The notes below the pieces were generated by a model. The model saw only the letters and a list, made by a program, of their open reading frames with translations, was not told where the DNA came from and searched no databases. A stretch of DNA of 41,313 nt from Candidatus Eiseniibacteriota bacterium (GTDB lineage Bacteria > Eisenbacteria > RBG-16-71-46 > CAIMUX01 > WJJG01), in contig WJJG01000049.1 in assembly GCA_014729815.1 (NCBI GenBank), positions 1 to 41,313 of the forward strand, given 5' to 3'. Shown here one piece after another: positions 4,171 to 13,378 of this stretch (within the stretch, counting starts at the first letter, position 1; each line of letters begins with the position of its first letter). A program made the position numbers and the translations under genes.

Positions 4171-4225
4171 GCCGGGATGGATCCGACCGGGTCCTGCGCG
4201 GGTAGTGGCCCGCGGAATCGGAGCA

Positions 4226-4245
4226 CGGGCGCCGATCGGCGCCCG
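4226..4245 (+). promoter_or_regulatory. Perfect 20-bp palindrome in the dxs 5' leader (potential hairpin or operator)
   Basis: CGGGCGCCGATCGGCGCCCG, just upstream of the GGGGGGAG SD-like sequence and the GTG start at 4261. Confidence 0.5.
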
Positions 4246-4260
4246 CGCGGGGGGAGAAGC

Positions 4261-6243
4261 GTGGCCGCAGGTGAACTGCTCAGCAGGATCTCGGGACCCC
4301 AGGATCTGCGGGGTCTCGATGCGGATCGCCTGCCGCAGCTCTGTGGCGAGATCCGCGAGACGATCATCGAGACGGTGCGGCGCAACGGGGGCCACCTGGC
4401 GCCCAGCCTGGGCGTGGTCGAGCTGACGGTCGCCCTGCACCGGGTCTTCGAGTCACCCCACGACCGCATCATCTGGGATGTCGGGCACCAGTGCTACGCC
4501 CACAAGCTCCTCACCGGCCGCCGCGAGGCGTTCGCCGAGATCCGCCGGGAGGGGGGTCCCAGCGGTTTCTGTCGCCGCGACGAGAGCCCCCACGATCCGT
4601 TCGGCGCGGGACACGCCAGCACCTCGATCTCGAGCGCCCTCGGCATCGCCACCGCGCGGGACCGGCAGGGCGAGGACTACCGCGTGGTCGCGGTCATCGG
4701 CGATGGCGGCCTGTCGGGGGGTTTGGCTCTCGAAGGTCTTGATCGGGCAGGTGATTGCGGGCGTGATCTGATCGTCGTTCTCAACGACAACAACATGTCG
4801 ATCTCGCCGACGGTGGGCGCGATATCACGGCACCTGACGGAGATCATCACCCATCCACTCTTCGAGCGCGCCAAGCGCGACATCTGGGAGCTGACCGAGA
4901 AGGTGCCCCCGGTCACCCAGCCCGTACGCCAGATGGCGCGACGCATCGAGGAGAGCCTCAAGGGCTTCCTGACGCCGGGCCTCTTCTTCGAGAATCTCGG
5001 CTTCCGCTATCTGGGACCGATCGAGGGGCACGATCTGCGGGCCCTCGAGCGCGTCTTGAAGAAGGTGCGACGCATGCACGGGCCGATCCTCGTGCATGTG
5101 CTGACCCAGAAGGGACGCGGACTGCCGGATGCCGAGGATGATCCACGCAAGTACCACGGTGTGCCGCCGGTGCGGGCCGAGAGCGGCAAGGTCGAGACCG
5201 GCAACGGGCGCATCAGCTACACGGAGATCTTCGGCGAAGCGCTGTGCGAACTCGCCGAGCGGGACGATCGCCTGGTGGCGGTCTCGGCGGCCATGTGTGA
5301 TGGCACCGGTCTGACGACCTTCGCCCGCCGATTTCCCGACCGATTCTACGATGTGGGGATCGCCGAAGGGCATGCCGTCACCTTCGCGGCCGGACTGGCC
5401 GCCGAGGGATTGCGTCCCGTCGTGGCCGTCTATTCGACCTTCCTGCAACGCGCCTTCGATCAGTTGGTGCACGATGTGGCCCTGCAGCGCCTGCCGGTGA
5501 TCTTCGCCCTCGATCGTGCCGGGCTCGTGGGCGAGGACGGCGCGACGCACCATGGCGCCCTCGATCTGGCCTACTTGAGCTGCATTCCGCACTTCGTGGT
5601 CTGCGCGCCGCGCAACGGCGCCGAGCTGCGCGACCTGTTGCGCACCGCGCAGGACTGTGCGCGGGGACCGTTCGCCATCCGCTATCCACGCGCGGCGATT
5701 CCGGACGCCGAGCGGCCCGGGGCCACGCCGCGCCGTCTGGAGATCGGCCGGTGGGAGCGCCTGCGGGCCGGGTCCCATGTGGCGGTGCTGGCGGTCGGCA
5801 CGATGGTGGCCGTGGCGGAGGCTGCGGCGGCGCGATTGGCGACACGCCGGATCGAGGTCGAACTGGTCAACGCACGCTTCGTCAAGCCGCTCGATCGGGA
5901 GATGCTCGGGGATCTCGCGCGCCGCCACACACGCATCGTGACGCTCGAAGAGGGAACGGTGGCCGGTGGGTTCGCCGCGCAGATCGAGCGCGCCCTGGCG
6001 GATCGGCCGGCGCCGGAGCCGCGTCCGGTGCTGCGGCGACTCGGACTGCCGGATCGGTTCATACCCCACGCGACGCGCAACGCGCAGCTGGCGCGGTGTG
6101 AACTGACGCCCGAGCGGATCGCGTCGCGGATCGCCGTGTTCTGCGACGAAGGTGCGCGTGCGGGGGGCGCCGTGGGACGGACCGCCGATGCGGCGGCGCT
6201 GTCGGCGATGGGGGCCAGTCGGTTGACGCGAGAGGAGGGATGA
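4261..6243 (+). CDS. dxs: 1-deoxy-D-xylulose-5-phosphate synthase
   Basis: LLSRISGPQDLRGLDADRLPQLCGEIRETIIETV...HDRIIWDVGHQCYAHKLLTGR...GAGHASTSISSALGIATARD...VIGDGGLSGGLALEGL; start chosen at GTG 4261 by alignment to the usual DXS N-terminus. Confidence 0.96.
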   Translation: MAAGELLSRISGPQDLRGLDADRLPQLCGEIRETIIETVRRNGGHLAPSLGVVELTVALHRVFESPHDRIIWDVGHQCYAHKLLTGRREAFAEIRREGGPSGFCRRDESPHDPFGAGHASTSISSALGIATARDRQGEDYRVVAVIGDGGLSGGLALEGLDRAGDCGRDLIVVLNDNNMSISPTVGAISRHLTEIITHPLFERAKRDIWELTEKVPPVTQPVRQMARRIEESLKGFLTPGLFFENLGFRYLGPIEGHDLRALERVLKKVRRMHGPILVHVLTQKGRGLPDAEDDPRKYHGVPPVRAESGKVETGNGRISYTEIFGEALCELAERDDRLVAVSAAMCDGTGLTTFARRFPDRFYDVGIAEGHAVTFAAGLAAEGLRPVVAVYSTFLQRAFDQLVHDVALQRLPVIFALDRAGLVGEDGATHHGALDLAYLSCIPHFVVCAPRNGAELRDLLRTAQDCARGPFAIRYPRAAIPDAERPGATPRRLEIGRWERLRAGSHVAVLAVGTMVAVAEAAAARLATRRIEVELVNARFVKPLDREMLGDLARRHTRIVTLEEGTVAGGFAAQIERALADRPAPEPRPVLRRLGLPDRFIPHATRNAQLARCELTPERIASRIAVFCDEGARAGGAVGRTADAAALSAMGASRLTREEG

Positions 6244-7190
6244 GGGCGGTGGAGAATCTCGTCATTCTGGGATCGGGGCCCGCCGGCCTGACGGCTGCGA
6301 TCTATGCGGCGCGGGCCCAGCTCGATCCGGTTCTGATCCATGGTCCCGAGCGGGGCGGGCAGCTGATGATCACGACCGAGGTCGAGAACTTCCCCGGTTT
6401 CCCCGAGGGGATTACCGGGCCCGAGCTGATGGAGCGTTTCCAGAAGCAGGCCGAGCGCTTTCGAACGCGCTTCCGCGAGCATCTGGTCCATCGCGTGGAG
6501 CTGGGCCGGCAGCCCTTCCGCCTGACGCTCGATACCGAGGAGGTCGTCGAGTGCCAGGCCCTGATCATCTCGACCGGCGCCTCGGCGCGCTGGTTGGGGC
6601 TCGAGTCGGAGGCCGCCCTGCGTGGAGCGGGCGTCAGCGCCTGCGCCACCTGTGACGGCTTCTTCTTCCAGGGCAAGGAGGTGATCGTCGTCGGCGGCGG
6701 CGATACGGCGATCGAAGACGCCACTTTCCTGACCCACTACGCCTCGAAGGTCTACATCGTGCATCGCCGCGATCAGTTGCGTGCGTCGAAGTTCATGCAG
6801 GAGAAGGCGCGCGCCAACGAGAAGATCGATTTCATCTGGGATTCGGTGGTCGAGGAGGTGCGCGACGTCGAGAAGCGGCAGGTCACGGCGGTGGTGCTCA
6901 AGAACGTCAAGACCGGAGCGCTGCGCGAGATGCCGATCGACGGGGTCTTCGTGGCCATCGGCCACCAGCCGAATACGAAGCTCTTCACCGGGCAGTTGGA
7001 GATGGATCCGGCGGGATACCTCGTGACCAAGGGCGGCACCACGAGCACCAACGTGCCGGGTGTCTTCGCCGCCGGGGATGTGGCCGATTCGCGCTACCGC
7101 CAGGCGATCAGTGCTGCCGGAAGCGGGTGCATGGCCGCCATCGATGCCGAGCGTTTCCTGGGAGGCGAGCCGCCGCCGCTGGATCGCTAG
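6240..7190 (+). CDS. trxB: Thioredoxin-disulfide reductase
   Basis: LVILGSGPAGLTAAIYAARAQL, redox motif CATCDG, GGGDTAIEDA, GVFAAGDVAD; ATGA overlap with the dxs stop. Confidence 0.96.
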   Translation: MRAVENLVILGSGPAGLTAAIYAARAQLDPVLIHGPERGGQLMITTEVENFPGFPEGITGPELMERFQKQAERFRTRFREHLVHRVELGRQPFRLTLDTEEVVECQALIISTGASARWLGLESEAALRGAGVSACATCDGFFFQGKEVIVVGGGDTAIEDATFLTHYASKVYIVHRRDQLRASKFMQEKARANEKIDFIWDSVVEEVRDVEKRQVTAVVLKNVKTGALREMPIDGVFVAIGHQPNTKLFTGQLEMDPAGYLVTKGGTTSTNVPGVFAAGDVADSRYRQAISAAGSGCMAAIDAERFLGGEPPPLDR

Positions 7191-7846: not shown

Positions 7847-8377
7847 ATGGAGGCCAGGCAGGGAGCCCGGAGCGAGGAGGATGCCGACCGTCGACGTCTG
7901 GAGGATGCCGCCAAGCTCTGGCTGGCGCACGATGGTCTCTGGTTCCAGGCGGTCGAGCAGAGATTCGGCATGGAAGCCGCGATTGCCTGCGACAAGGCGG
8001 CCTGGGGGCGCTTCTCACCGCTCGAGGCGCGCCGGATCCTGGCGCGCCTCGGCGCCCAGCCGGGCGGCGGTCTCGATCTGCTCGAGCGCGCCCTGGGGGA
8101 ACGCCTCTACAGTCATCTGAATCGACAGAGCAGCGATCGACCTGCGCCGGAGCGCCTCATCTTCCGTATGCGCAGCTGCCGCGTGCAGGACGCGCGGCAA
8201 CGCAAGGGACTGCCCGACTTCCCTTGCCGCGAGGTCGGCATCGTCGAGTATCGCACCTTCGCCGAGACGATCGATCGGCGCATCCGCACGCGCTGTATCT
8301 CCTGCCCGCCCGATCCCCGCCCGGAAGGAGCAGTGTGCGTCTGGGAGTTCACCCTCGATGAGGGCGCGGGCCGGTGA
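7847..8377 (+). CDS. DUF6125-like conserved protein of unknown function
   Basis: KLWLAHDGLWFQAVEQRFGMEAAIACDKAAW...MRSCRVQDARQRKGLPDFPCREVGIVEYRTFAETIDRRIRTRCISCPPDP; conserved-looking Cys set; 4-bp overlap with the downstream activase gene. Confidence 0.6.
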   Translation: MEARQGARSEEDADRRRLEDAAKLWLAHDGLWFQAVEQRFGMEAAIACDKAAWGRFSPLEARRILARLGAQPGGGLDLLERALGERLYSHLNRQSSDRPAPERLIFRMRSCRVQDARQRKGLPDFPCREVGIVEYRTFAETIDRRIRTRCISCPPDPRPEGAVCVWEFTLDEGAGR

Positions 8378-11300
8378 TCGCACCCCAGCCTCCCCACCCG
8401 CGGTTCTGGATCGGCTGCGACGTCGGTTCGACGGCCGTCAAGGTCGCCGTGCTCGCTTGCGGCGATCTACACGTCGTGGCTACCCGCTATCGGCGTCACA
8501 ACACCCGTCAGACCGCCACCGTGCGGGCGCTGCTCGGAGACCTCGCCCGGGAGATGCCGGGCCTGCTCGAGTCGGCCGTTCCGCTCTTCACCGGAAGCGG
8601 CGGCCGCACGCTGGCCGAGCGCACCGGAAGCGGCTTCGTGCAGGAGGTCAATGCGGTCGCGCTGGCCACCGAGCGCTTGGTTCCCCATGCGGGCAGCGTG
8701 GTCGACATCGGGGGTCAGGATGCCAAGATGATCCTCTGGTCGCCCGATCCCCATAGCGGGCGGCGCCGCAAGAGCTTCAGCATGAACGACAAGTGCGCTG
8801 GCGGCACCGGTGCGGTGATCGATCGGATCGTCAAGAAGTTGGGGATCTCGCCCGAGGAGGCGGCGCGGACCGGATTCGATCCGCAGCGGATCCATCCGGT
8901 GGCGGCGCGCTGTGGCGTGTTCGCCGAGACAGACATCAACGGTCTGCAGAAGCAGGGCGTTCCCGCGCCGGACCTGTTGGCCTCGCTCTTCGCGGCCATC
9001 GTGCAGCAGAATCTGAGCGTGCTCACGCGCGGGGCGACGCTCGTGCCCCCGGTGCTCTTGCTCGGTGGGCCGCACCGCTTTCTGCCCGGTCTGGTGTCCG
9101 CCTGGCGCCACGCGTTGGACGCCCTATGGGAGGAGCGTCCCGCGGCGCGCTCGTCGGGCCCGCGCCGGGAGGCGATCGAGGTGCCCGAGCGCGCCTGCTT
9201 CTTTCCGGCGATCGGTGCGGTCCTCTTCGGGGCGGCAGATCCGAGGGGAGGAGCGCGGAGTCGACCGCGGGCGGCACCGGTGTTGCGTGCCCTCGCGGCG
9301 CCGACTCGCGCCCACCGGGAGCGAGACGGATTGCCCGGGCTCGTGGCCGACGCGGGCGAAACGGCGCGCATCGAGGCGCTGGCGCAACAGGCCGCGCCCG
9401 AGGGCTTCGGTCGCTGGGCCGGCCGGAGTTGCCCAGCCGTGATCGGTCTGGATGCGGGATCGACTTCGACGAAGGCCGTGGTCTGCGACGAGCGGGGGCG
9501 ACTCCTGGCCAAGTCGTATCGGCTCTCGGGGGGAGATCCCCTGGCCGACGCGCGCGCGGTGCTGGGCGAGCTGGAGGCCCAGGCGTTCGCTGCGGGTACC
9601 GAGTTGCAGGTGCGGGCGCTGGGCACGACCGGGTACGCCAAGGACATGCTGGCCGAGATCCTCGGGGCCGACACCGTGCTGGTGGAGACTGTCGCGCATA
9701 CGCGCGGCGCCCTGGCGATCGATCCCGACTGCGAGGTGATCGCCGACGTCGGCGGGCAGGACATCAAGGTGCTCGTGTTGCGCGACGGTCGCGTGCGCGA
9801 TTTCCGCCTCAACAGTCAGTGCTCGGCCGGCAACGGCTACTTCCTCCAGAGCACCGCCGCGCGTTTCGGGATCCCGCTTGAGCGCTTCGCCGCGGAGGCC
9901 TTCCACGCCACGCACTGCCCGCGCTTCAGCTTCGGGTGCGCGGTCTTTCTGGAGGCCGATATCGCCAACTTCCAGCAGCTCGGTTGGCAACCGGGCGAGA
10001 TCCTGGCCGGGCTGGCGCGCGTGCTGCCGCAGAACGTCTGGCTGTATGTCGTCAACGAGCCGAACCTGGCGCGCCTGGGACGGCGCTTCCTGTTGCAGGG
10101 CGGCACGCAGCGCAACGTCGCGGCGGTCAAGGCACAGGTCGACTTCGTGCGCGAGCGCGTTCCCGGCGCGCGGATTCGCGTGCATCCGCATGCCGGGGAG
10201 GCCGGCGCGATCGGTGTGGCGCTGGAGCTGCTCGCCGAGCGGCCCGGGGGCGTGTCGCGCTTCATCGGCTTCGAAGCGCTGCGCGATCTGCGGGTGCGCG
10301 CGCGGCAGGATGAGAGCACGCGCTGCCGCCGGTGCCGCAACCGGTGCGCGCGAACCCTGCTGGAGGCCACCCTGCCCGATGGAGGCGTGCGGCGCTACAT
10401 GATCGCCGCCTGCGACCTGGGGCGAGAGCTGGACGAAGGCCCGGCCGCTCGAGCGCGCCGGGGCCCACGCACCGCAGCGCCCGACTTCTCCGCGCGCGCG
10501 GCTCGGCTGGCCTTCGTCTCACCGTCGGAGGCGTTGCGCGGGCGTGCCCGCCAGCGGGTGGCGGCCGATCGCTGGCCGCGCTTGCCGGGGATGCGCGCGG
10601 CTGCGCGGGCGCGGGAGCGGCGCGCACAGGTGCGCATCGGCCTCCCGCGGGCGGTCAACCTCTACCAGACCGCACCACTGCTGACGCACTACCTCGTGGC
10701 CTTGGGCATCGATCCGGGGCGGATCCTCTTTTCGGGTGAGACCAGCGAAGCGCTCTATCGTCGAGGATCGCGCCGCGGGGCGGTCGATGGCTGCTACCCC
10801 TCCAAGCTGGCCCTGGCGCACGTCCACGATCTGCTCTATCGGGTGACACCGGACTGGATCCTCTTCCCGATCCTGGTCAATGTGCCGCGGCAGTTCCCGG
10901 ATGCGATCGACGCCAGCATCTGTCCGACGTCGCAGGCCGCCCCGGCCGTCGTGCGCGCGGCGCTGACCCGCGAGGGAGACCTCTTCGCCGAGCGGGGAAT
11001 CCGCTACGAGACGCCGGTCTTCCATGTCGGAGAGCCGGCGCTCTTCGCCCGCGAGATGCTGCAGTTCTGGGGGCCGCGCCTGGGGGTCACGCCGCGCGAG
11101 AATCGCCTGGCGCTGGATTGCGCCTGGCGAGAGCTGGTGCGCGAGCGGGAGGCACGATTGCGGCAACCCGCCGCGCGGGCCTTGGCGGCCCTCCGCGCGG
11201 CCGGACGCGTGGGCATCGTCGTCCTGGGGCGTCCCTACCACAACGACGCGGGCATCAACCACGGCATCTTCCGCGACCTCAACCGCCGCGGCTATCCGAT

Positions 11301-11751
11301 CTTCTGCATCGAGGCCCTGCCGCGCGATGCCGAGCCGTTGCGCGAGATCTTCGCAGACGATCTGGCGGACGGTCGCATCCGGCATCCGCTGGAGATTGGC
11401 GACGTGTGGAAGAACAGCTTCAGTGCCAACTCGAACGCCAAGCTCTGGGCGGCCAAGCTGGTGGCGCGGGTACCCCATCTGGTGGCCCTGGACATCAGCA
11501 GTTTCCGCTGCGGTCACGATGCGCCGATCTACGCCACGATCGAGGCCATTCTCGAGCGCAGCGGGCGACCCTACTTCGCGTTTCACGACGTGGACGAGAA
11601 CCGCCCCAGCGGTGCGATTCGGCTGCGGGTTGAGACGATCGACTACTTCCTGCGAGAATACGAGCGGCGCCACCTGCGCGAGCGACCCTGCGAGCCCGCG
11701 GGGCCGGAAGAGCGTGCGGTGGCCGATCTGCTGACCGAGGTTCCGGTGTGA
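8374..11751 (+). CDS. Acyl-CoA dehydratase activase-related protein: two BadF/BadG/BcrA/BcrD (HgdC-type) ATPase domains fused to a DUF2229-like domain
   Basis: Domain 1: GCDVGSTAVK...DIGGQDAKMILW...NDKCAGGTGAVIDRI...RCGVFAETDI; domain 2: GLDAGSTSTKAVV...ADVGGQDIKVL...NSQCSAGNGYFLQ...FGCAVFLEADI; linker CRRCRNRC; C-terminal VRIGLPRAVNLYQTAPLLTHYLVALGI...GCYPSKLALAHVHDLL. Confidence 0.9.
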   Translation: MIAPQPPHPRFWIGCDVGSTAVKVAVLACGDLHVVATRYRRHNTRQTATVRALLGDLAREMPGLLESAVPLFTGSGGRTLAERTGSGFVQEVNAVALATERLVPHAGSVVDIGGQDAKMILWSPDPHSGRRRKSFSMNDKCAGGTGAVIDRIVKKLGISPEEAARTGFDPQRIHPVAARCGVFAETDINGLQKQGVPAPDLLASLFAAIVQQNLSVLTRGATLVPPVLLLGGPHRFLPGLVSAWRHALDALWEERPAARSSGPRREAIEVPERACFFPAIGAVLFGAADPRGGARSRPRAAPVLRALAAPTRAHRERDGLPGLVADAGETARIEALAQQAAPEGFGRWAGRSCPAVIGLDAGSTSTKAVVCDERGRLLAKSYRLSGGDPLADARAVLGELEAQAFAAGTELQVRALGTTGYAKDMLAEILGADTVLVETVAHTRGALAIDPDCEVIADVGGQDIKVLVLRDGRVRDFRLNSQCSAGNGYFLQSTAARFGIPLERFAAEAFHATHCPRFSFGCAVFLEADIANFQQLGWQPGEILAGLARVLPQNVWLYVVNEPNLARLGRRFLLQGGTQRNVAAVKAQVDFVRERVPGARIRVHPHAGEAGAIGVALELLAERPGGVSRFIGFEALRDLRVRARQDESTRCRRCRNRCARTLLEATLPDGGVRRYMIAACDLGRELDEGPAARARRGPRTAAPDFSARAARLAFVSPSEALRGRARQRVAADRWPRLPGMRAAARARERRAQVRIGLPRAVNLYQTAPLLTHYLVALGIDPGRILFSGETSEALYRRGSRRGAVDGCYPSKLALAHVHDLLYRVTPDWILFPILVNVPRQFPDAIDASICPTSQAAPAVVRAALTREGDLFAERGIRYETPVFHVGEPALFAREMLQFWGPRLGVTPRENRLALDCAWRELVREREARLRQPAARALAALRAAGRVGIVVLGRPYHNDAGINHGIFRDLNRRGYPIFCIEALPRDAEPLREIFADDLADGRIRHPLEIGDVWKNSFSANSNAKLWAAKLVARVPHLVALDISSFRCGHDAPIYATIEAILERSGRPYFAFHDVDENRPSGAIRLRVETIDYFLREYERRHLRERPCEPAGPEERAVADLLTEVPV

Positions 11752-11773
11752 GTGCGTGGCAGATGGAGCTGCG

Positions 11774-13378
11774 ATGAGTTCCCACGGCCCTTCCTCCTCG
11801 CCGCGGACGTCCGAGAGGGACGCGCCGCAGACGTACCGGCGCTCCGAGACGCCCCCGTTGCCGCATGCCGAGCGTCGGCGGGTGACGGTGCTCTTCGGGG
11901 GACTCACCCGCGCCCATGAGCGGCTGATCGAAGGGGGGTGGCAGGGACTCGGGTATACGGTCAAGGCGCTGCCCACGGCCGACAACCAATCGCTGGCGAT
12001 CGGCAAGGAGTTCTGCAGTCGCGGGATGTGCAATCCCGCCTACTACACGATCGGCAACCTGCTCAAGTACCTGCTCCAGCTCCGCCGAGCGGGTGTCCCC
12101 GAGATCGAGGAGCGCTTCGTCTATCTGACAGCCGGCTCGTGCGGTCCCTGTCGGTTCGGCATGTACGAGGCCGAGTACCGTCGCGCCTTGGCCCAGGCCG
12201 GCTTTCCGCGCTTCCGCATTCTGCTGGTGCAACAGGACCAGGGCCTCGAACAGAATGCCGCCGAAGGGGTCTTTGTCGCCGACCGCGACTTCCTGCAGGC
12301 GCTCGTCCGCGCACTGATGGTGGGCGACCTGCTCAACGAGCTGGGCTACGCCCTGCGCCCCTACGAGGTCGAGCCGGGGGCGATCGATGCCGCCCTGGCC
12401 GAGGGCCGGCGCTGGCTCTATTGGGCCCTCCGCGATCGGCAGAGCCCGCTGCCGGCACTGCGACGCCTGCGCAAGCGCCTCGACGAGGTACCGATCGACT
12501 ACGCGCGCGTGCGGCCGCGGGTGAGAATCGTCGGAGAGTTCTGGGCGCAGACCACCGAGGGCGACGGAAACTACCACCTGGCCCGCTGGCTGGAGTCGGA
12601 AGGTGCCGAGGTGATGGTCGAGCCGGTGGGCACCTGGATCGAATACCTGCTCTGGAACCGCATCCAGCGCAGCCGGGCGCGGCGCACGCTGCCCCCCGAA
12701 GGCGGCGAGCGCCACTCGCCGCTGCTCGAGCTGAAGCTCCGCATGGGACAGATCCTCTTCGATTCAGTCTACAACAGCTATCGGGCCGCCTTGGGCTTTC
12801 GCACCGAGCCGATCGCCTCGCTCGATACGCTGGCGCGCTACGCCCACGAATACTTCGATACGCGCATACGGGGAGGAGAGGCCTTTCTCGAGGTCGCCAA
12901 GACGGTCTTCGCGGTGCGGCATCGCAGGGCGCACATGGTGGTGTCGGTCAAGCCGTTCGGCTGCATGCCGAGCACGCAGAGTGATGGGGTGCAGGTGCGC
13001 GTGGTCTCCGACCATCCCGAAGCGCTTTTCATCCCCGTCGAAACATCGGGCGACAGCGAGGTGCATGTGAAGAGTCGCGTGCAGATGCTGCTCTTCGAGG
13101 CCCGCGAGCGTGCGACCGAGGAGTTCGACCGCGTGGCGCGCGATCTGGGCCTGCGCGAACTGCTCGCCGATGCCCAGGCGCGCGAACGCTTGCCGATGCC
13201 GCCCACCATGCATCCGCTCCCGCGGCGCGAGCGGGGCACGGCAGCCAACTATCTCTGGTGGCTGGCGCGGCCCGCCGCGCTGCGCACGCTGCCCCTGCCG
13301 AGTGAGCGACTGACCGCCTTGCTGTGTCGTGCGGGTCTGCGCCGAACGGCCGGCGATGCGCCGCGCGACGCGTCCTAG
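11774..13378 (+). CDS. DUF2229/HgdB-like putative Fe-S partner of the activase
   Basis: FCSRGMCNPAYYTIGNLLKYL, TAGSCGPCRFGMYEAEYRRAL, KPFGCMPSTQSDGVQ; immediately downstream of the activase fusion. Confidence 0.8.
   Translation: MSSHGPSSSPRTSERDAPQTYRRSETPPLPHAERRRVTVLFGGLTRAHERLIEGGWQGLGYTVKALPTADNQSLAIGKEFCSRGMCNPAYYTIGNLLKYLLQLRRAGVPEIEERFVYLTAGSCGPCRFGMYEAEYRRALAQAGFPRFRILLVQQDQGLEQNAAEGVFVADRDFLQALVRALMVGDLLNELGYALRPYEVEPGAIDAALAEGRRWLYWALRDRQSPLPALRRLRKRLDEVPIDYARVRPRVRIVGEFWAQTTEGDGNYHLARWLESEGAEVMVEPVGTWIEYLLWNRIQRSRARRTLPPEGGERHSPLLELKLRMGQILFDSVYNSYRAALGFRTEPIASLDTLARYAHEYFDTRIRGGEAFLEVAKTVFAVRHRRAHMVVSVKPFGCMPSTQSDGVQVRVVSDHPEALFIPVETSGDSEVHVKSRVQMLLFEARERATEEFDRVARDLGLRELLADAQARERLPMPPTMHPLPRRERGTAANYLWWLARPAALRTLPLPSERLTALLCRAGLRRTAGDAPRDAS

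Follow-up and report, generated by a model that had tools for sequence, protein, structure and literature searches.

Which enzyme is served by an ATP-driven activase that has no dehydratase beside it? This question is raised by three adjacent genes in a 41,313-nt stretch of DNA from Candidatus Eiseniibacteriota bacterium (contig WJJG01000049.1); we refer to this whole stretch as the window. The genes encode a DUF6125 protein (p1), a protein with two HgdC-type activase domains in tandem followed by a four-Cys knuckle and a DUF2229 half (p2), and a Cys-rich protein (p3). A first-pass annotation of the window had described them as a self-contained activase plus acceptor with no obvious substrate enzyme. 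The self-contained module is strengthened by our analysis, since DUF2229 and p3 themselves appear to have the HGD-D fold, as judged by hhalign, AlphaFold2, and Foldseek; the substrate enzyme is not missing, as a catalytic-type half sits inside the module as DUF2229 and p3. We consider it quite likely that the locus encodes a complete, self-contained archerase-type system, in which the activase pair of p2 would drive a component-D-like heterodimer of DUF2229 and p3. Of the earlier interpretation as a whole, an ATP-driven HgdC-type module with an acceptor stands; the lack of a substrate enzyme, two activase clusters, and an obligate DUF6125 protein do not.

The origin of p3 is hidden from standard searches. 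It has no match in Pfam or NCBIfam and none by phmmer against PDB sequences; only a fold search gave relatives. Neither p2 nor p3 matches the HGD-D profile (PF06050) above the cut-off; bridging relatives do. When profiles were compared with hhalign, p3 matched DUF2229 at 95.5% probability (E=1.4e-8) with three of three Cys superposed. Both also matched HGD-D, p3 at 67% (E=5e-5) and DUF2229 at 73% (E=3.1e-5), with decoys below 0.5%. The HGD-D profile, built from 41 proteins, contains three nearly or fully invariant Cys at positions 117, 147, and 378; in relaxed local alignments, all three co-align with p3 and two of the three with DUF2229. Strict global alignment of p3 to HGD-D paired C403 alone, so that the three-Cys match of p3 relies on the relaxed local alignment together with the fold.

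A separate three-gene set encodes a single activase, a DUF2229-like protein, and a third protein that matches both HGD-D and DUF2229 (locus L093, 6471-9709); it also occurs in L094, L095, L101, L238, and L240-L245, and adjoins a fused tandem gene in L093-L095. In the best cases, these third proteins match HGD-D and DUF2229 simultaneously at ~1e-10 to 1e-9 each; judged by these profile matches, they bridge the two families directly.

In other genomes, DUF2229 and p3 are joined with the tandem activase in a single protein of ~1350-1480 residues. We aligned 24 of these natural fusions from the knuckle to the C-terminus and found exactly ten invariant Cys in the C-terminal half, grouped 4+3+3; the equivalents in the window are C651/C654/C658/C680 and C807/C850/C1046 in p2 and C92/C132/C403 in p3. 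AlphaFold2 models were obtained for p3 (predicted local distance difference test, pLDDT, 80.0; predicted template-modelling score, pTM, 0.80) and for the C-terminal 823 residues of one natural fusion (pLDDT 86.9, pTM 0.86). In Foldseek searches of the PDB, the first 13 places for p3 and the first 14 for the natural fusion are all held by the double-cubane cluster protein (DCCP), BzdNO, MbdNO, and HadBC, after which the probability falls. An HGD-D fold of p3 and of the natural fusion is well supported by these models. In BzdO, the ligands of the [4Fe-4S] cluster are Cys95, Cys128, and Cys380, with water or hydroxide on the fourth iron (PMC11971306); the three-Cys plan of DUF2229 and p3 matches this site.

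The activase half is readily recognized. Residues C141/C180 and C483/C522 align with the cluster Cys of HgdC and are invariant in alignment A3; they likewise match those of the 2-hydroxyisocaproyl-CoA dehydratase activator. Each domain does carry the cluster-Cys motifs first described for it; a separate cluster in each domain is not supported, however, since in HgdC-type activases each monomer contributes two Cys to one cluster shared at the interface (PMC11574389) and 2+2 aligned Cys imply one. Most likely, the two domains fold as an intramolecular pseudo-dimer in which C141, C180, C483, and C522 hold one bridging [4Fe-4S], not two. The four-Cys knuckle that follows may be an extra Fe-S or Zn site. 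Its motif is present in 34 of the 39 tandem proteins; the five that lack CxxCxxxC (L233, L234, L235, L239, and L246) suggest that the site is dispensable or replaced.

Taken as an archerase-type system, the module probably uses ATP to drive electrons through Fe-S clusters into its own reductase half. ATP binding and hydrolysis would push single low-potential electrons out of the activase [4Fe-4S], perhaps by way of the C651-C680 knuckle, and the acceptor would be the component-D-like heterodimer that the DUF2229 half of p2 would form with p3, a protein of its own. Each half would bind one cluster through its three Cys (C807/C850/C1046 and C92/C132/C403); one of these clusters would relay and store the electron, and substrate reduction would take place at the other, which would have an open iron site.

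Several points weigh against this proposal. The Foldseek TM-scores are modest (~0.3-0.5, by target length), so either the domain arrangement differs from that of solved component D or it is poorly modelled. The hhalign probabilities to HGD-D are no higher than 67-73%, and DUF2229 does not align its middle Cys with HGD-D. Contact between p2 and p3 is predicted only from the natural fusion. The Eisenbacteria clade is long-branched, and its function might have changed. In the open-access literature, we found no biochemistry for any family member and no functional work on DUF2229, COG3580/3581, DUF6125, or the family named as activases.

The features of the locus are collected in Table 1. The three open reading frames lie exactly where they had first been placed, and the 4-bp overlap of p1 and p2 is borne out by GTGA at 8374-8377. 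Two BcrAD_BadFG stretches in p2 (PF01869, whole-protein E=1.8e-72), a match to TIGR00241 (NCBIfam, E=5.1e-56), and PF09989 (E=2e-38) confirm the two HgdC/BadF-type ATPase domains and the DUF2229 domain behind them. All the Cys motifs quoted in the first-pass annotation are found in the sequence, with two amendments. In addition to the three Cys of CRRCRNRC, the knuckle includes a further invariant one, C680, that had been missed. In p3, the motifs are present but conservation across the family is limited to C92, C132, and C403; C87 (in FCSRGMC) is replaced by Gly in L089 and C129 (in SCGPC) is missing outside the Eisenbacteria clade. The conserved-looking Cys noted in DUF6125 proved to be five invariant residues: C111, C127, C150, C153, and C164 (alignment A1).

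Table 1. Positions of the genes, domains, and candidate metal-binding residues of the module in the window.
Feature	Position	Strand	Evidence
DUF6125 protein p1, 176 aa	7847..8377	+	PF19620 E=4.9e-68; invariant Cys from alignment A1
p2, 1125 aa: tandem activase, Cys knuckle, DUF2229	8374..11751	+	Open reading frame call, Pfam, NCBIfam
p2 activase domain 1, HgdC-like, ASKHA ATPase	8401..9273	+	1hux E=1.8e-18, Cys aligned
Predicted cluster Cys of activase domain 1	C141 codon 8794-8796; C180 codon 8911-8913	+	
p2 activase domain 2	9439..10224	+	9gai_D E=3.2e-23, 1hux E=6.8e-23, Cys aligned
Predicted cluster Cys of activase domain 2	C483 codon 9820-9822; C522 codon 9937-9939	+	
p2 four-Cys knuckle C651, C654, C658, C680	10324..10413	+	Invariant in alignment A3
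p2 DUF2229 half, putative HGD-D-like subunit 1 of component D: C807, C850, C1046	10621..11643	+	PF09989; hhalign against p3 and HGD-D; fold search with natural fusion
p3, 540 aa, putative HGD-D-like subunit 2 of component D	11756..13378	+	Alignment A5; AlphaFold2; Foldseek
Predicted cluster Cys of p3	C92 codon 12029-12031; C132 codon 12149-12151; C403 codon 12962-12964	+	

The fused proteins and the window module share the same order of parts (tandem activase, Cys knuckle, DUF2229, and p3 part; alignments A3-A5 and tree) and the same 4+4+3+3 Cys plan, at ~28-30% identity for p2 and ~15-25% for p3. The window version differs in being divided between two genes, in its long branch, and in having DUF6125 upstream. 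In a tree of 39 tandem proteins, the five Eisenbacteria members come out as a single clade (100/99) with a long stem; long branches meet there, so the exact position of the clade is unsure. The window version, with its parts split, represents a long-branched clade from a single Eisenbacteria family. Fused relatives occur in Bacillota, Fusobacteriota, and other phyla, where RefSeq calls them 'acyl-CoA dehydratase activase' or '2-hydroxyacyl-CoA dehydratase'; automatic annotation already covers members of the wider family, among them those of Listeria, Haliovirga, and Monoglobus, where it occurs as the three-gene set. DUF2229 was also found in Lactococcus lactis and in the control genomes of Deinobacterium chartae and Thermus composti. 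The last two organisms are usually regarded as aerobic, an odd setting for Fe-S chemistry at low potential.

Characterized systems show comparable parts in other arrangements. Like HadBC and its activator (3o3m; 4eht), the module has two cluster Cys per activase domain and a predicted pair of HGD-D-fold halves with three Cys each; unlike them, its two activase domains form a tandem fusion that continues into one half, it has an extra four-Cys knuckle, it lacks CoA genes, and its halves are only remotely similar by sequence. The class I benzoyl-CoA reductases BzdNOPQ/MbdONPQ (8s02, 9gai) combine two unlike activase subunits with two unlike HGD-D subunits; the window has the same stoichiometry fused into two chains, whereas the known system uses separate genes. 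BzdN also differs in carrying a six-Cys double cubane, and no genes for aromatic degradation were seen in the window. DCCP and its reductase DCCP-R (6eno, 7yyl) provide the top fold match of p3 and the same kind of driving activase; in contrast, DCCP is a single gene product with an [8Fe-9S] cluster, and the host genome has a separate gene for a true DCCP.

Do neighboring genes point to a substrate? The host genome is a 3.8-Mb draft, 89.6% complete. Upstream of the module, the window encodes PfkB, a B12-binding radical SAM protein, DXS, a thioredoxin-reductase-like flavoprotein, and peptide deformylase; downstream lie a DHH phosphoesterase, a subtilase, MutS2, DnaG, and a sigma factor. No CoA-transferase, dehydratase, 2-hydroxyacid dehydrogenase, acyl-CoA gene, or catabolic gene was recognized among the window genes. 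The DXS and thioredoxin-reductase-like genes also lie 5' of the module in one relative, L090 (2256-5483; window 4177-7190), but not in L089. ARAGORN called a tRNA-Glu within the PfkB gene (1529-1601); it lacks Rfam support and is probably false.

The absence of a canonical HgdA/HgdB pair, a CoA-transferase, or an acyl-CoA gene nearby, as originally reported, is supported. A search with the HGD-D family profile found no canonical member in the 625 kb covered around 48 activase/DUF2229 loci. The only weak matches were p3-like third proteins of the related gene set. Neighborhoods of the tandem loci were likewise clustered in search of a shared metabolic partner, and this gave lineage synteny only. 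Within the Eisenbacteria family, the order DUF6125, tandem activase, p3 is kept in all five sampled genera (in G010, across two contigs), with identities of 60-63% for p2 and 67-71% for p3; this recurrence is far beyond chance. Among 47 genomes of the phylum, DUF2229 is found in 12 and a p3 relative in the same 12; DUF6125 is found in only nine, overlapping partially with the 12.

These observations bear on what the reductase half might do. It could be an electron-delivery or maturation machine, in which DUF2229 and p3 reductively activate another metalloenzyme and turn over no small molecule themselves. The tandem loci have no conserved metabolic neighbor, the window has no catabolic genes, and another ATP-driven Fe-S complex, unrelated to this one, is known to serve in MCR activation (PMC12176620). 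But no conserved gene for a partner enzyme was seen, and the three-Cys sites match the open-site clusters of catalytic HadB/BzdO-type subunits (PMC11971306); we regard a pure delivery role as rather unlikely. Much the same holds for a DCCP-like reductase acting at its clusters on small or non-CoA substrates. DCCP heads the fold matches of p3 (7yyl, 6eno) and no CoA-ligase or CoA-transferase lies nearby, but the matches to BzdNO and HadBC are almost equal to these. The six Cys ligands of an [8Fe-9S] cluster were not found; only three are invariant per half, which makes a double cubane unlikely. A 2-hydroxyacyl-CoA dehydratase, or another radical CoA-thioester enzyme, would agree with the homology of both halves to HGD-D and with the RefSeq names of the Listeria and Monoglobus relatives. 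Those names are automatic, though, and no CoA-transferase, 2-hydroxyacid dehydrogenase, or acyl-CoA gene is conserved near the tandem genes; we find this assignment improbable.

DUF6125 had been proposed as an obligate accessory. It does adjoin the module in five of five genera of the Eisenbacteria family, but it was found beside none of the other tandem loci examined. We identified at least 527 relatives in a scan of public genome contigs and examined the neighborhoods of the best 80, which are the most similar to the query and no random sample, with some on short contigs. An activase or p3 lies nearby at only four of the 80, all from the Eisenbacteria family. DUF2229 is absent from 22 of 50 DUF6125 genomes, and was not found in one (G004) that is 99% complete and has DUF6125. 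DUF6125 is a lineage-specific, probably co-transcribed protein outside the core machine; with 76 of 80 loci lacking the activase and 22 of 50 genomes lacking DUF2229, it is very improbable as an obligate subunit. DUF6125 (L106-L185) forms a distinct family that occurs widely in many largely anaerobic phyla. A radical SAM gene lies near 16 of the 80 loci, and TrmO or an ARMT1-like phosphatase is sometimes nearby; nothing coherent about function emerged from these neighbors.

Finally, the tandem activase might serve the separate DCCP of the same genome, found on contig C331 (L010 5421-6719; E=3.7e-149 to 7yyl). This DCCP is the sole HGD-D gene found in the genome, and the tandem protein is the sole full activase on the assembled contigs. 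Immediately 3' of the DCCP gene, however, at L010 6732-6919, is what reads as the start of its own activase, cut by the end of the contig (MRAAGLDIGSRSVGLVVIDRAG, read by eye). In G032 and G005, DCCP-like genes are followed immediately by an activase, and in G007 and G010, both incomplete drafts, the module is present but no HGD-D gene was found; we rejected DCCP as the hidden acceptor because of its adjoining activase and these two genomes, and consider it barely credible. Another HGD-D gene, L073 (G009:C97:11544-12638), has one in-frame TGA, for which assembly error, decay, or selenocysteine are possible.

We return to the archerase-type system of p2 and p3. Tentatively, the tandem-activase/DUF2229/p3 family may be a further kind of ATP-driven low-potential reductase with a reaction of its own, of which the DUF6125-coupled Eisenbacteria clade would be a specialized form. 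If so, energizer, wiring, and catalyst would be built into one or two polypeptides, alongside the dehydratases, benzoyl-CoA reductases, DCCP, and nitrogenase-like enzymes. An activase family that seemed to lack a substrate enzyme becomes a testable two-protein reductase, with both halves of the catalytic-type component and the Cys to be mutated now identified. The family is widespread in gut bacteria, pathogens, and uncultured phyla, and solving one member would probably explain many of the proteins automatically annotated as 'acyl-CoA dehydratase activase'.

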